From contig NZ_LMDU01000013.1 in assembly GCF_001425165.1 (NCBI RefSeq), forward strand, positions 186,001 to 250,000: a DNA stretch of 64,000 nucleotides, in the 5' to 3' direction. Both the position numbers and the translations under genes were made by a program. Below, in pieces: positions 37,411 through 45,986 of the stretch (position 1 is its first letter; each line of letters opens with the position of its first letter). Below the pieces are notes generated by a model. That model was given only the letters and a program-made list of their open reading frames with translations. It had not been told where the DNA came from and did no database searches. Source of the stretch: Pelomonas sp. Root405 (GTDB lineage: Bacteria > Pseudomonadota > Gammaproteobacteria > Burkholderiales > Burkholderiaceae_C).

Positions 37411-38507
37411 GTCAACGAAGTATCGACCTCGCGGCGAGCCAGGGCCAGGTATTCGGCCGAGCGCATTTCCTGCAGCCGCGATACGGTGCGCGGAAACTCG
37501 TGCGCCAGCGGCCCTTCGGTATAGAGCTGCTCAGCTGGCACCGCGGCCGAGATGATGAGCTTGACGCGGCGGTCATAGAGCACGTCCACCAGCCAGGTGA
37601 AGCGGCGCGCCTCGCTGGCCAGGCGCACTGGCATCTCGGGCACGTCGGACAGGATGACGGTGTGGAACTGGCTGGCCAGCTCCAGGTAGTCGTTCTGCGA
37701 GCGAGGGCCGCCGCACAGCGTCTGGAAGTCAAACCACACCACGCCGCCAGCACGCCTGCGGGCGAGGATGGCGCGGTGCTCGATCATGAGCTTGCGATCC
37801 TCGTCCTGGGCCTCCGCGAGCGATTCAAAGGCCTTGGTGAGCGCAGCTTCGGTCGTCTCGTTCAGCGGCGTCAGGTAGAGGTTCATATCCTCCAGCGTGC
37901 GGCGACGGTAGTCGGTGCCGGCGTCGACGTTGATGACTTCGAGGTGGGCCTTCAGAAGCTCGATGGCGGGCAGGATGCGGTCGCGGTGCAGGCCGTTGGG
38001 GTAGAGCCCGTCGGGGTGGAAATTCGACGTCGTGATGATGGACACGCGGTTGCGGAACAGCGCGTCCAGCAGCCGATGCAGGATCATTGCGTCGGTCACG
38101 TCAGCCACGTGGAATTCGTCGAAGCAGATCAGGCGGAAACGCCGCGCGATGCGTTTGCCGAGTTCGTCCAGCGGGTCTGCGATGCCCTTGAGCTCCTGCA
38201 GCTCGCGGTGCACCTCGCGCATGAACTCGTGAAAGTGCAGACGCGTCTTGCGCTGCAGCGGTACGGCCTGGAAGAAGCAATCCATCAGGAAGCTCTTGCC
38301 TCGGCCGACACCGCCGTACATGTAGACGCCGCGCGGGATGGGCGGGCGCACCAGCAGCTTGGTCACCGCATTCGCGCGGCGAGCCTTGTAGCTGGCCCAG
38401 TCGTCCTGGCAGCGCTGCAGGGCCGAAACCGCGCGCAATTGCGCTGGGTCGGCCGTGTAGCCGCGCTCGGCCAGCGTCTGCTGGTAGAGCTCGGTGACTT
38501 GGGTCAC
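37407..38507 (-). CDS. zapE: Cell division ATPase ZapE (AFG1 family)
   Basis: 366 aa from the GTG at 38507, one base after the lpdA stop. It starts MTQVTELYQQTLAERGYTAD, as expected for the family; the longer upstream frame overlaps lpdA. Walker A is GGVGRGKSFLMD near residue 64, Walker B region LICFDEFHVADVTDAM, and the typical TSNFHPDGLYPNGLHRDRILP (written in part). ZapE acts at the Z-ring under stress in E. coli. Neighbourhood to the odh genes is common in Burkholderiales. Confidence 0.95.
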   Translation of the reverse strand: MTQVTELYQQTLAERGYTADPAQLRAVSALQRCQDDWASYKARRANAVTKLLVRPPIPRGVYMYGGVGRGKSFLMDCFFQAVPLQRKTRLHFHEFMREVHRELQELKGIADPLDELGKRIARRFRLICFDEFHVADVTDAMILHRLLDALFRNRVSIITTSNFHPDGLYPNGLHRDRILPAIELLKAHLEVINVDAGTDYRRRTLEDMNLYLTPLNETTEAALTKAFESLAEAQDEDRKLMIEHRAILARRRAGGVVWFDFQTLCGGPRSQNDYLELASQFHTVILSDVPEMPVRLASEARRFTWLVDVLYDRRVKLIISAAVPAEQLYTEGPLAHEFPRTVSRLQEMRSAEYLALARREVDTSLT

Positions 38508-38508
38508 G

Positions 38509-39930
<1,422 letters not shown>

Positions 39931-39934
39931 GGGA

Positions 39935-40114
39935 TTAGTTCACTTTCAGTTTGACGAGTTGGCCGTCCTGCTGGACGACCAGATACGTATTGGTCTGTTT
40001 GGCGAGCTCGCGGGCGCGCTGCCGGGCGCGCTCGAAGGCGGCTGCGGCGTTGCGGAAATCGGGGGATTTCGCTGTAGACAAGGGAGCCGGGATAGTGGGT
40101 TTGGCAGTCTTCAA
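39935..40114 (-). CDS. 59-residue ORF coupled to the zeta-like kinase, possible cognate partner
   Basis: Starts with TTG at 40114, overlapping the kinase stop (TTGA), and ends with TAA four bases before the lpdA ATG, so it exactly fills the gap. The product is basic and in three parts: a Pro/Thr/Lys-rich start ([13 protein letters not shown]), a helical middle ([18 protein letters not shown]), and a short beta-like end ([17 protein letters not shown]). I do not recognise a named family. Small helical-then-strand proteins beside COG4185 kinases are plausible antitoxins, but this is inference. An in-frame stop just upstream excludes a longer protein. Confidence 0.6.
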
Positions 40115-40632
40115 GAGTCGCTCCAGTCAAGCACATCGAAGAACGTGCTGGACGCATCGATCAGCATCCAGGCATCAACCAACGGTTTGTACACATGCTC
40201 GAAATTGGCCCAGCCCGCGTGAAACCTGCGTTCGATGACATCCGCGGGGATGTGATGTCCGCCCTGACGCACACGCTGCGCCACTCGCTCGATAGCGAAC
40301 TGGGCGCTCGGTAGCCTCAGAAAGAACAGCTCGATGCGATAGCCCGCCTGCTTCCACCGTCGAATGGACTGCGCGTAGGCACGCCCGCTCAATGTGGTCT
40401 CAAAGGCAAAGCTTTCCCGTCGCCCCGCATGCCGCTCAATCTCCGTCAGCATGAGCCGGCCAGCCGCGAGCGCTGCCGTTTCTGGCGCGAACGGCGCCAG
40501 CCCGGCGGCGATCAGATCGGCATTGACGTAAACCGGGCACTGCGCTTCTTGCGGCAGGAACTCTCTCGCGAAGGTCGTCTTGCCGGCCCCGTTGGGACCG
40601 GACAGGATGATCACGCGAGGCGCCGAGGACAT
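40111..40632 (-). CDS. Zeta-toxin-like P-loop kinase (COG4185 type)
   Basis: 173 aa. Walker A GPNGAGKT at residues 12-19, then YVNADLIAAGLAPF (zeta-type Asp39), FAFETTLSGRAYA at 75-87, and VRQGGHHIPADVIERRF at 121-137. These are the features of chromosomal zeta-like kinases; true zeta toxins phosphorylate UDP-N-acetylglucosamine. It starts 16 bases after odhB and is followed by a coupled 59-residue ORF, so it is inserted between E2 and E3 of the 2-oxoglutarate dehydrogenase operon. Whether it is toxic or a housekeeping small-molecule kinase cannot be told from sequence. Confidence 0.85.
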   Translation of the reverse strand: MSSAPRVIILSGPNGAGKTTFAREFLPQEAQCPVYVNADLIAAGLAPFAPETAALAAGRLMLTEIERHAGRRESFAFETTLSGRAYAQSIRRWKQAGYRIELFFLRLPSAQFAIERVAQRVRQGGHHIPADVIERRFHAGWANFEHVYKPLVDAWMLIDASSTFFDVLDWSDS

Positions 40633-40648
40633 GCCCGCGTGTCCGGTC

Positions 40649-41902
<1,254 letters not shown>

Positions 41903-41989
41903 GGTGGGAGGCTCCGTGTCTTTTATTGGGTGTGGTGTGCGCAGGCGCAAGCGAACGCAGCGCCCTGAATGGCGCCGCGCAACTCGGTC

Positions 41990-44845
41990 TTATTTGGTAA
42001 GGATGAAGCCCTTGAGCTTGGCGAACGCCTGATCTAGCAGCGCCTTCTGCTGCTCCTGATGCAGGTGGGCGTAGCCGCAGGCCGGGCTCGCGCTGGCCGG
42101 GCGACCGGCGTAGCCCAGCTTCTGGCCTTCCGTCATGTTCTCGTGCACATAGTGCTGCACGAAGAACCAGGCGCCCTGGTTCTGCGGCTCGTCCTGGCAC
42201 CAGACGATGTCGGTGGCGTTCGGGTACTTCTTGAGCTCGGCCGCGAAGGCCTTGTGCGGGAAGGGGTAGAGCTGCTCGACGCGGATAACGGCCACGTCGG
42301 CGGACTTCTTCTCCGCACGCGCCTTGACCAGGTCGTAATAGACCTTGCCCGAGCAGACGATGACGCGCTTGACCTTCTCTGCGTTCAGCGCCGCATCCTG
42401 CTCGCCGATGACGGTCTTGAATTCGCCCTTGGTGAAGTCGGCCAGCGGCGACGTCGCGTCCTTGGCGCGCAGCAGGCTCTTGGGCGTCATGATGATCAGC
42501 GGCTTGCGGAACATGCGCAGCATCTGGCGGCGCAGCACATGGAAGATCTGCGCGGCATTGGTCGGCTGCACGATCTGCATGTTGTTGTCCGCGGCCAGCT
42601 GCATGAAGCGCTCCAGGCGCGCCGAGCTGTGCTCGGGCCCCTGGCCCTCGTAGCCGTGCGGCAGCATCATCGTCAGGCCGTTGGAGCGGCCCCACTTCAC
42701 TTCGCCGGAGGCAATGAACTGGTCGATGACGACCTGCGCGCCGTTGACGAAGTCGCCGAACTGCGCTTCCCAGATGGTCAGCGTGTTGGGCTCGGCGGCG
42801 GCGTAGCCGTACTCAAAGCCCAGCACCGCTTCTTCCGACAGGATGGAGTCGATGACGGTGAACGGTGCCTGGCCGTCAGCCACGTTCTGCAGCGGGATGT
42901 AGGTGCCGGCGTCCCAGTTGGCGCGATTCTGGTCATGCAGGACGGCGTGGCGGTGGGTGAACGTGCCACGGCCGCTGTCCTCGCCGGACAGGCGCACCGG
43001 GTAGCCCGAGGCCACCAGCGACGCGAAGGCCATGGACTCGCCCATGCCCCAGTCGATGTTGATCTCGCCGCGGCCCATCGTGGCGCGGTCCGCGTAGAGC
43101 TTGGCGACGAGGTTGTGCGGCGCGAAGTCCTTGGGCAGCGTCGTCAGCTTCTCGGCCAGTCGCTTCCATTCGGCCACCGGGATGGCGGTGTCGCAGCTGT
43201 CGGTCCACTTCTTGCCGAGGAAAGGCGACCAGTCGGTGGCGAACTTGCTCTTGAAGTTGGTCAGGACCGGGTCGACCGTGTGGCGACCTTCGTCCATCGC
43301 GGCGCGGTAGGCCTTGACCATGTCGTCCGGGCCTTCGGCCGGCAGCACGTTCTGCGCGACCAGCTTGTCGCCGTAAACCTTGCGCGTGCCGGGGTGGGCA
43401 GCAATCTTTTTGTACATCAGCGGCTGGGTCAGCGCCGGGGTGTCCTGCTCGTTGTGGCCCAGCTTGCGGAAGCAGACGATGTCCAGCACCACGTCCTTCT
43501 TGAACTCGGCGCGGTAGTCCATGCAGAGCTGGGTGGCCCAGACGACGGCCTCGGGGTCGTCGCCGTTCACGTGCAGCACCGGTGCCTCGATCATCTTGAC
43601 GACGTCGGAGCAGTACCAGGTCGAACGCAGGTCGCGCGGGTCGCTGGTGGTGAAGCCGATCTGGTTGTTGATGACGATGTGCACCGTGCCGCCGGTGCGG
43701 TAGCCACGCGTCTGCGCCATCGCCAGCGTTTCCTGCACGACACCCTGGCCACCAAAGGCTGCGTCACCGTGCACCAACACGGGCAGCACCTGAGCGCCGA
43801 CAGTGTCGCCACGGCGGTCCTGGCGGGCGCGCACGCTGCCTTCGACGACCGGGTTGACGATCTCGAGGTGGGACGGGTTGAACGCGAGGCTCAGGTGCAC
43901 CGGGCCGCCAGGCGTCGACACGTCAGAGCTGAAGCCCTGGTGGTACTTCACGTCGCCAGCGGGCAGGTCCTCGGCGGCCTTGTGCTCGAACTCGGCGAAC
44001 AGGTCGGCGGGCATCTTGCCCAGCGTGTTGACCAGCACGTTCAGGCGACCACGGTGGGCCATGCCGATGACGATCTCCTGCACGCCGCGCTCGCCGCCGC
44101 GCTGGATCAGTTCGTCCATGGCGGCGATGAAGCTCTCGCCACCTTCGAGCGAGAAACGCTTCTGGCCGACGTAGCGGGTGTGCAGGTAGCGCTCCAGGCC
44201 TTCGGCCGCGGTCAGGCGGTCGAGGATGTGCTTCTTCTCGTCGGCCGTGAAGTTGGGCTTGCCGCGTGCCTTCTCCAGGCGCTCCTGCCACCAGCGCTTT
44301 TCGCCGGGGTCGGAGCCGTGCATGAACTCGGAGCCGATGGAGCCGCAATAGGTCTCGCGCAGGGCCTGCACGATCTGGCGCAGCGTCATCGTCTCGCCAC
44401 CGAAGTAGCTGTTCACGGCGCTGAACGAGATGTCCATGTCGGACTCGGTCAGGTCGTAGAACGCGGGGTCGAGTTCGGGAATCTTGGGACGCTCGGCGCG
44501 CTTGAGCGGGTCCAGCTCCGCCCAGCGGTTGCCGAGAAATCGATAGGCCGCGATCAGCGACTGCACGTGCACCTGCTTGCGGGCGACGGCCAGATCGGCG
44601 CTGGAGGCCTTGTTGGCGAAGGCGTTGGCCTTGGCGCGCTGGGCGAAAGATTCGACGACCGGCGCATGGGCCACGTCGCGGGCCTCGCTGCCGTCAACCG
44701 CCGGGACATGCTGCAGCGCGTCGAAATAGGCGCGCCAGTTGTCGGGGACGGAGCCCGGGTTGTCGAGGTAGGCCTCGTACATCTCCTCCACATACGGCGC
44801 GTTACCGCCGAACAGGTAGGAGTTGGACCTGTATTGCTGCATCAT
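41990..44845 (-). CDS. odhA: 2-oxoglutarate dehydrogenase E1 component
   Basis: Thiamine-diphosphate enzyme of the TCA cycle. 951 aa, typical. It has the N-terminal E1 helix SYLFGGNAPYVEEMYEAYL, the HGDAAFGGQGVVQETLA and NNQIGFTTSDPRDLRS segments of the ThDP site, the FRKLGHNEQDTPALTQP region, and the C-terminal GYEGQGPEHSSARLERFMQL. It starts an operon with odhB, the kinase/ORF pair, lpdA and zapE. It is divergent from a 2-oxoglutarate-dependent oxygenase gene. Confidence 0.98.
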   Translation of the reverse strand: MMQQYRSNSYLFGGNAPYVEEMYEAYLDNPGSVPDNWRAYFDALQHVPAVDGSEARDVAHAPVVESFAQRAKANAFANKASSADLAVARKQVHVQSLIAAYRFLGNRWAELDPLKRAERPKIPELDPAFYDLTESDMDISFSAVNSYFGGETMTLRQIVQALRETYCGSIGSEFMHGSDPGEKRWWQERLEKARGKPNFTADEKKHILDRLTAAEGLERYLHTRYVGQKRFSLEGGESFIAAMDELIQRGGERGVQEIVIGMAHRGRLNVLVNTLGKMPADLFAEFEHKAAEDLPAGDVKYHQGFSSDVSTPGGPVHLSLAFNPSHLEIVNPVVEGSVRARQDRRGDTVGAQVLPVLVHGDAAFGGQGVVQETLAMAQTRGYRTGGTVHIVINNQIGFTTSDPRDLRSTWYCSDVVKMIEAPVLHVNGDDPEAVVWATQLCMDYRAEFKKDVVLDIVCFRKLGHNEQDTPALTQPLMYKKIAAHPGTRKVYGDKLVAQNVLPAEGPDDMVKAYRAAMDEGRHTVDPVLTNFKSKFATDWSPFLGKKWTDSCDTAIPVAEWKRLAEKLTTLPKDFAPHNLVAKLYADRATMGRGEINIDWGMGESMAFASLVASGYPVRLSGEDSGRGTFTHRHAVLHDQNRANWDAGTYIPLQNVADGQAPFTVIDSILSEEAVLGFEYGYAAAEPNTLTIWEAQFGDFVNGAQVVIDQFIASGEVKWGRSNGLTMMLPHGYEGQGPEHSSARLERFMQLAADNNMQIVQPTNAAQIFHVLRRQMLRMFRKPLIIMTPKSLLRAKDATSPLADFTKGEFKTVIGEQDAALNAEKVKRVIVCSGKVYYDLVKARAEKKSADVAVIRVEQLYPFPHKAFAAELKKYPNATDIVWCQDEPQNQGAWFFVQHYVHENMTEGQKLGYAGRPASASPACGYAHLHQEQQKALLDQAFAKLKGFILTK

Positions 44846-45143
44846 CTTTCGCTCACCTCATGCCCCGGTTTCCAGGGAGTTGGCTGGTTGAAGAACCTTC
44901 CGCGACACGGCTCGACCGATTGGCGGATTGCGACCCACCTTCGCTGCTGCCAGCAAAAGGGACGGGAAGGAATAAAAGTATCAGGGCCGGACTCTAGCAC
45001 CCCGGGTTTGCCCGAGCCGGTGTCGGAGGCGCGACAAAGTTCACGAACCGACATGCGGCAAAGTTGACTGGCCCGTAAACTTGTCAGTCGCGCCAGCCCC
45101 GAGATTGAATGGCTGTTCGCAAGGGACATTCAGGAGATCCCCG

Positions 45144-45986
45144 ATGCAAGTCCAGGTCGTTGACTACCGCGCACCCGACGCCGCCGAGAAGTTCACCCGC
45201 TCCCTGCACGAGACCGGCTTCGGTGTGCTGACCAACCACCCGATCCGCCAGGGCCTGGTCGAGAAGATCTATGCCGACTGGCTGGCTTTCTTCAACAGCG
45301 ACGCCAAGGACGACTTCGCGTTCTCCAAGGAGACGCAGGACGGCTACTTCTCGACCGCCATCTCGGAGACCGCCAAGGGCTCCAAGCAGAAGGACATCAA
45401 GGAGTACTTCCATGTCTACCCGTGGGGCCGCATCCCGGAGCAGTTGAAGGCAGACGCCCTCACCTACTACCGCGAGGCCAACGCGCTGGCTGAGGAACTT
45501 CTGGGCTGGGTCGAGCGCTACACGCCACCTGAAATCGCCGCCAAGTACCGCGAGCCGCTGTCCAACATGATCAAGGGGAGCACCAAGACTTTGCTGCGCG
45601 TGCTGCGCTACCCGCCGTTGACAGGCGAGGAGCCGGCCGGCTCCATCCGCGCGGCGGCGCATGGCGACATCAACCTGCTGACCATCCTGCCGGCCGCCAA
45701 CGAGCCCGGCCTGCAGGTGCTGGGCACCGACGGCGCCTGGCACGACGTGCCCTGCGACTTCGGCACGCTGACCATCAACATCGGCGACATGCTGCAGGAG
45801 GCGTCGGAAGGCTACTACCCGTCAACCCAGCACCGCGTCGTCAACCCGACCGGCGAAGGCGCGAAGAAGAGCCGTGTGTCGCTCCCGCTGTTTCTGCACC
45901 CGCGCGACGACGTGGTCCTCAGCGACCGCTACACGGCCAACAGCTATCTGGACGAGCGCCTGCGCGAACTCGGGGTGAAGGCCTGA
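45144..45986 (+). CDS. 2-oxoglutarate/Fe(II)-dependent oxygenase (isopenicillin N synthase-like)
   Basis: 280 aa from the ATG at 45144, preceded by CAGGAG. The jelly-roll Fe(II) site is visible: His173 and Asp175 (AAHGDINLLTILPA), His230 (STQHRVVNP), with the 2-oxoglutarate Arg244 in KKSRVSLPLF. The N-terminal part (VQVVDYRAPDAAEKF then TGFGVLTNHPI) matches the DIOX_N region. The substrate is unknown. Sitting divergent to odhA, it uses the same 2-oxoglutarate that OdhA consumes, so shared regulation is possible. It is convergent with the exonuclease gene, 8 bases apart. Confidence 0.9.
   Translation: MQVQVVDYRAPDAAEKFTRSLHETGFGVLTNHPIRQGLVEKIYADWLAFFNSDAKDDFAFSKETQDGYFSTAISETAKGSKQKDIKEYFHVYPWGRIPEQLKADALTYYREANALAEELLGWVERYTPPEIAAKYREPLSNMIKGSTKTLLRVLRYPPLTGEEPAGSIRAAAHGDINLLTILPAANEPGLQVLGTDGAWHDVPCDFGTLTINIGDMLQEASEGYYPSTQHRVVNPTGEGAKKSRVSLPLFLHPRDDVVLSDRYTANSYLDERLRELGVKA

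Follow-up and report, generated by a model that had tools for sequence, protein, structure and literature searches.

The DNA analysed here, a stretch of 64,000 nucleotides from Pelomonas sp. Root405 (contig NZ_LMDU01000013.1, positions 186,001 to 250,000; hereafter the window), carries the genes of the 2-oxoglutarate dehydrogenase complex on the minus strand in the order odhA-odhB-kinase-small ORF-lpdA, so that a zeta-like P-loop kinase gene and a small open reading frame (ORF) form a two-gene cassette between odhB and lpdA (Table 1). The spacings from odhB onwards are 16, −4 and 4 bases. The coordinates bear out the arrangement described in the original prediction, which had been made from the sequence alone: the gene order, a kinase beginning 16 bp after odhB, a TTG-initiated 59-codon ORF that overlaps the kinase stop by TTGA, and an end 4 bp before lpdA. 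For odhB, an alternative upstream TTG at 41950 is likewise open.

Table 1 Features of the odh operon and its cassette (positions in the window).
Feature	Position	Strand	Evidence
sucA RNA motif, operon leader	44850..44933	minus	Rfam RF01070, 81.8 bits (gathering 40)
odhA, 2-oxoglutarate dehydrogenase E1	41990..44845	minus	NCBIfam NF006914, 1375 bits
odhB, dihydrolipoyl succinyltransferase	40649..41902	minus	NCBIfam NF004309, 610 bits; ATG at 41902 by codon model
Zeta-like P-loop kinase, 173 aa, ATG start	40111..40632	minus	Pfam PF06414, 42.8 bits
TTGA overlap, kinase stop / small-ORF start	40111..40114	minus	Sequence
Small partner ORF, 59 aa, TTG start	39935..40114	minus	ORF and profile conservation
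Weak ribosome-binding region of lpdA, within the final codons of the small ORF	39933..39952	minus	−1.8 kcal/mol
lpdA, dihydrolipoyl dehydrogenase E3	38509..39930	minus	NCBIfam TIGR01350, 542 bits

The kinase scores above the curated cut-off (22.3 bits) of the Pfam Zeta_toxin family and has the fold of zeta/PezT, with PezT, zeta and AvrRxo1 as its best Foldseek matches. The Walker A motif, GPNGAGKT, lies at residues 12–19 as predicted, and Asp39, Glu78, Arg120 and GGH (124–126) occupy conserved columns in an alignment of 43 sequences including that of the window. Motif positions were mapped by spacing and by the comparison with Rv0366c in PMC6362051, without residue alignment, using the zeta motif list in section 6 of that paper. 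On this basis, the P-loop GXXGXXKT, the catalytic Asp and the equivalents of Glu116 and Arg158 are all present (12–19, D39, E78 and R120), and His126 occupies the Arg171 position, like His122 of Rv0366c. The GTXR signature for UDP-N-acetylglucosamine (UNAG) is absent and reads TTLS (T79-T80-L81-S82), with E78, T80 and L81 invariant across the 43 sequences. The description of the zeta motifs as intact is thus correct as regards nucleotide binding and the catalytic Asp (P-loop, Asp39, Glu78 and Arg120) but fails at GTXR, and because this motif is absent, the UNAG target that intact motifs had implied is unsupported.

To place the cassette, we examined 99 kinase loci drawn from family and order searches, a search of relatives and four plasmid records (L### and G### are the locus and genome labels of the present analysis); L144 was left out because it repeats L103, and a genome-contig scan gave four loci that were little used. 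A profile of the small ORF, seeded from 29 loci that are included in the counts, matches a sequence adjoining the kinase in 70 of the 99 loci, 62 of them at E<1e-3, as the original prediction of a kinase partner had called for. Over the remainder of these loci, searched in six frames across a few kb each, the profile found at E<0.001 only a second copy in L134 and matches within the kinase frame, namely two fusions (L077 and L089) and an in-frame deletion (L115). Fusion of the small ORF to the kinase occurs in three loci, the two just named and L142, where the match is weak (E about 0.01). The 29 profile-negative loci include much of a divergent clade at glnS sites, in most loci of which a different small ORF lies downstream of the kinase; others are the three fusions, L115, L080, which is cut by a contig end, and L119 and L120, two distant kinases beside which no small ORF was seen. 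The start of the partner is offset by −4 from the kinase end in 49 of 61 pairs, including the pair in the window. Rather than accumulating synonymous and non-synonymous changes equally, the small ORF is under purifying selection (17 pairs compared), and the kinase and small protein co-diverge (43 pairs). Conserved adjacency, natural fusions, purifying selection and co-divergence support the view that the small ORF is a real gene and the partner of the kinase, as originally proposed.

The small protein is modelled as one helix (residues 23–41) followed by a β hairpin (residues 44–57), with a pLDDT of 86.8 and a pTM of 0.55. The model has no fold match in the PDB at E<=0.001. When 43 members were scanned singly, no Pfam, NCBIfam or PHROGs family appeared in more than two of them at E<=0.1 (best 4.2e-4, one member), and PADLOC gave no family for the five partner proteins tested. 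For the window protein itself, the nearest Pfam family is DUF2188 (E 0.1, 13.2 bits, below the cut-off of 22), and nothing was returned from NCBIfam, PHROGs or PADLOC. Neither these libraries nor the predicted model reveals a recognised domain, including a DNA-binding one. Nor do they connect the partner, by sequence or by fold, with the epsilon/PezA antitoxins, although a missing match is no proof.

Comparison of the odhB-lpdA gap in relatives showed that the cassette occupies a site at which other DNA is also found. Among 20 genomes of the genus, 17 yielded an lpdA of this type, the genome of the window being one of them. The gap measures 17–21 bp in nine of these 17 (L042–L046, L051, L052, L054 and L057), 154–157 bp in five whose gaps share a repeat-like element (L047, L048, L049, L053 and L055), 335 bp in G006, 522 bp in G011 and 718 bp in the window; the gap of G006 (L056/L217) is filled by a 107-residue ORF with no Pfam match at 0.001. 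In a family sample of 60 genomes, odhB was detected at E<=1e-25 in 59 and was followed by lpdA in all 59, with gaps under 180 bp in 47 and of at least 365 bp in 10. The gap lengths for L173, L177 and likewise L052 were miscounted, with odhB itself included. Further cargo at this site includes a BrnT toxin gene together with one for a DUF2867 protein (G034, L188), a SHOCT protein, and ORFs that by eye resemble small multidrug transporters, of which a 40-residue start was tested and had no Pfam match. In G034, a short ORF without a Pfam match lies between BrnT and DUF2867, at the expected place of the BrnT antitoxin, and a DUF2867 gene also follows the cassette in G197 (L210).

A kinase tree was built from 93 of the 99 loci (L090, L104, L113, L115, L118 and L146 were omitted). 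The odhB-lpdA kinases of the window, G011, G303, G128 and G635, the last from another family, form one clade (support 96/89), with G197 a less sure member (64/86 for all six). The clade occupies the odhB-lpdA gap in two further genera, probably three, and G606 and G072 have broken relatives of the kinase in the same slot beside an intact small ORF. With varied cargo and one kinase clade found there, the odhB-lpdA gap serves repeatedly as a cargo slot, and this clade stays with it. The description of the locus as an unusual place for such a system needs changing accordingly, as related modules also lie directly behind many other core genes.

In the window, the cassette replaces the 17–21 bp spacer of the nine genus relatives. 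Its flanks are native to the genus, with 93–97% identity to five empty-site relatives in 150-nt windows beside the slot; recent import of the whole odhB-lpdA tract was considered and, given this identity, is not seen. In a quick tree, odhB-lpdA of the window shares a starred set with six rows that have the site empty and represent five genomes. Between the window and G011, synonymous differences are 0.50 and 0.62 in the kinase pieces, 0.71 in the small ORF, 0.31 in odhB and 0.29 in lpdA, the latter two genes appearing codon-biased, as they differ by only 0.34 and 0.44 even from another genus. The kinase was detected at E<=1e-20 in 63 of 399 genomes of the family and at E<=1e-30 in 34 of 399 genomes of the order, samples that partly overlap, and a close kinase (E<=1e-25) was found in 2 of 20 genomes of the genus, that of the window and G011. 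The kinase gene of G011 carries both an in-frame stop and a deletion at the 3′ end. Occurrence of the cassette is patchy, and its composition is foreign.

Modules at other sites also sit beside core or restriction genes. Twenty upstream genes chosen from the 99 loci were compared with NCBIfam as pieces no longer than 329 residues, so that several fall under whole-protein cut-offs. Fourteen were matched: MocR-like, YchF, EttA, UvrA, MetH, ThiC, pyridoxal phosphate (PLP) aminotransferase, ABC ATPase, HemH, RuvA, AcnA, HemW (gap 117 bp), GlnS and HsdM; six had no NCBIfam match at 1e-30. Nine additional glnS sites were assigned by eye from a common C-terminus. Downstream of the module, RuvB was recognised by eye in L065, and so were YbgC/TolQ-like genes in L091/L092. 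A mod-like gene precedes the pair in seven loci (L061, L063, L064, L068, L074, L080 and L121), and a res-like gene follows it in six of these, again by eye, with each label tested once (N6_N4_Mtase upstream in L061, ResIII downstream in L064). This arrangement suggests that the pair is stably tied to type III restriction systems. Separately, three plasmid loci (L218, L220 and L221) carry distant zeta kinases with a gene of roughly 55–63 residues directly upstream; two such upstream genes (Agrobacterium and Roseibium) are alike by eye and may represent another partner family. The small-ORF profile did not match the upstream small genes of four distant plasmid zeta kinases (Agrobacterium, Roseibium, Enterococcus and Burkholderia).

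With regard to expression, a simple sigma-70 consensus scan, a weak test that detected none for odhA either, found no promoter-like site in 38400–45200. Since the cassette has no evident promoter of its own, it is plausible that it is co-expressed with the operon from the odh transcript. The sucA RNA motif lies upstream of odhA, and the entire operon including the cassette would fall under this leader. The ribosome-binding site predicted for the small ORF is better than that of the kinase. For lpdA, the predicted anti-Shine-Dalgarno pairing is −1.8 kcal/mol in the window and in G011, and −5.1 to −5.7 kcal/mol in eight empty-site genus relatives (L042–L046, L051, L054 and L057); the 47 short-gap cases as a whole span −9.1 to +1.2 kcal/mol. 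The lpdA ribosome-binding site of the relatives is absent in the window, and a remnant lies in the final codons of the small ORF in the window and G635. The C-terminus of the small protein reads LVKLKVN in the window, G011 and G635, and ends in KVT in G606. Because the cassette removed the lpdA gene's own ribosome-binding site, translation of lpdA is probably now coupled to the small ORF.

Each locus was searched against itself for a direct repeat with copy 1 ending near the kinase start and copy 2 beginning near the module end, which was guessed where no small ORF had been identified. Of the 99 loci, 10 have such a duplication of flanking DNA around the module, compared with 1 of 752 controls (0/614, 0/82 and 1/56); the limits were fixed after repeats had been seen, the controls were run under identical limits, and looser limits add L011, L105, L109 and L136. 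Copy 1 lies within the end of the upstream gene in L010, L066, L098, L102, L127 and L129, and in the spacer in L084 and L117. For G635 (L122) and G606 (L146), copy 1 corresponds to the head of lpdA, a truncated start of which precedes the kinase by a short distance. Self-search of the locus gave no flanking relic repeat in the window or G011. The downstream gene-tail copy is more distant from relatives in 7/7 comparisons for L129 and 7/8 for L105, as expected of a decaying relic, whereas for L066 the two copies lie at about the same distance from eight relatives. The stretch behind the L129 relic resembles the DNA following metH in two of seven relatives (L235 and L237; 71–73% over 82–84 nt); L233 and L234 have other short matches behind the relic, and the remainder none. 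Behind the relics of L066 and L105, no match was found in relatives.

These repeats are compatible with an insertion whose anchor lay within a core gene or next to it, either by one-sided homology or as a long target duplication. A tentative extension, which we put forward as a possibility rather than an expectation, is a transposase-less mobile cassette that spreads with core genes as homology anchors. Incoming DNA would consist of a core-gene end joined to the cassette, and recombination would take place within the core gene on one side and by illegitimate joining on the other, so that the core gene would stay intact and a remnant of its native end would lie beyond the cassette. At odhB-lpdA, such an event would have captured the lpdA ribosome-binding site too.

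The pair resembles epsilon/zeta and PezAT in kinase fold, Walker A, the positions of the catalytic Asp and Arg, and the adjoining small gene. It differs in a kinase about 70–100 residues shorter than solved zeta/PezT chains (240–272 residues) and lacking GTXR, and in a partner that lies downstream, is modelled as a helix plus hairpin, and shows neither a DNA-binding domain nor a promoter of its own. Rv0366c-Rv0367c is presented in PMC6362051 as a non-canonical PezAT-like pair; Rv0366c is likewise short, with P-loop, Asp and Arg and without GTXR, but its antitoxin is encoded upstream and has 129 residues with a predicted N-terminal ribbon-helix-helix, unlike the partner in the window. AvrRxo1-ORF1/ORF2 (PDB 4z8q) is among the best fold matches, although the solved AvrRxo1 chain has about 330 residues and the protein is a secreted effector (PMC4938570). 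A further counterpart is sll8004-ssl8003 on the Synechocystis plasmid pSYSG (tags assigned to L033 from gene order), whose kinase is 62% identical to that of the window over residues 2–163 and whose downstream small protein, one of the profile seeds, is 29% identical; unlike the pair in the window, it lies in a defence island. In PMC4963859, sll8004 and ssl8003 are among five toxin-antitoxin (TA)-related genes that miss its criteria. The open-licence literature yielded nothing treating this kinase-partner pair or COG4185 kinases, no TA insertion in a housekeeping operon and no link between TA systems and homology-facilitated illegitimate recombination, absences that carry little weight.

Taken together, these observations describe a conserved zeta-like kinase-partner module at a recurrent site that is probably of TA nature. 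With moderate confidence, we favour the view that a zeta-like kinase-antitoxin cassette entered this operon of core energy metabolism by horizontal transfer, with toxicity, neutralisation and substrate being inferred. The short kinase would be the candidate toxin, and the helix-plus-hairpin protein is plausibly its antitoxin; the cassette would have replaced the odhB-lpdA spacer on acquisition, the small protein would bind and block the kinase, and any unbound kinase would phosphorylate a metabolite of the cell, though probably not in the classical UNAG mode. The conserved adjacent partner gene expected of a type II TA system is present. Several observations weigh against this reading. Autoregulation is usual in type II TA systems, and the partner, which shows no DNA-binding domain, gives no sign of it; the UNAG motif is missing. 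Among the ten broken kinases checked (nine of the 99 loci and G072), the partner is retained in nine, which fits toxin-first loss yet also the larger size of the kinase (about 0.73 per hit), so that earlier loss of the kinase is not significant against gene size; some breaks may also be sequencing errors. Although 40 of 59 main-clade modules lie within 60 bp of the upstream gene, this hardly exceeds the 31 of 57 genes so packed in the window, and with so high a baseline promoter-less hitch-hiking is not shown as a statistical rule. Finally, 9 of the 47 short-gap lpdA cases pair more weakly than −1.8 kcal/mol without any cassette.

Alternatively, the kinase could be a non-toxic enzyme with a small regulatory or stabilising subunit, such as a nucleotide-sugar or nucleic-acid 5′-end kinase of metabolic or repair benefit. 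We consider this unlikely, as patchy occurrence, kinase decay in several genomes and the company of TA-like and restriction genes are unlike a housekeeping enzyme. The neighbouring restriction genes lend some weight to a phage-defence module in which infection frees the kinase from its partner and growth stops: in addition to the mod-like and res-like sites above, L078 lies behind hsdM, and L033 lies on the pSYSG island next to a restriction S subunit. Yet at many of the other sites the neighbour is an ordinary core gene, the kinase has no more than weak P-loop matches in PADLOC (best E 0.0059), where the small proteins match nothing, and the phage collection has four matching records, all under 30% identity, which makes this role less probable again. 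That the small ORF is a chance or decaying frame beside a solitary kinase might be argued from its TTG start, counted in 3 of 61 pairs with one of these (L009) a mis-chosen start, and from the G011 copy, which has ATG at the homologous start codon and stops at codon 47; conservation, purifying selection, fusions and co-divergence make this highly improbable, and we reject it.

The findings matter beyond this operon. The small protein defines a family unnamed in Pfam, NCBIfam, PHROGs and PADLOC, one that plasmid records label merely as 'hypothetical protein' and that probably serves many short zeta-like kinases, a large group, as their partner. A TA-like module uses fixed places beside core genes, and the duplicated flanks in some loci would record its route of arrival. 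Coupling of lpdA to the small ORF, if true, ties the module to core metabolism, and if core genes do serve as homology anchors, the result would be a TA pair that depends on a core enzyme operon and is hard to remove.
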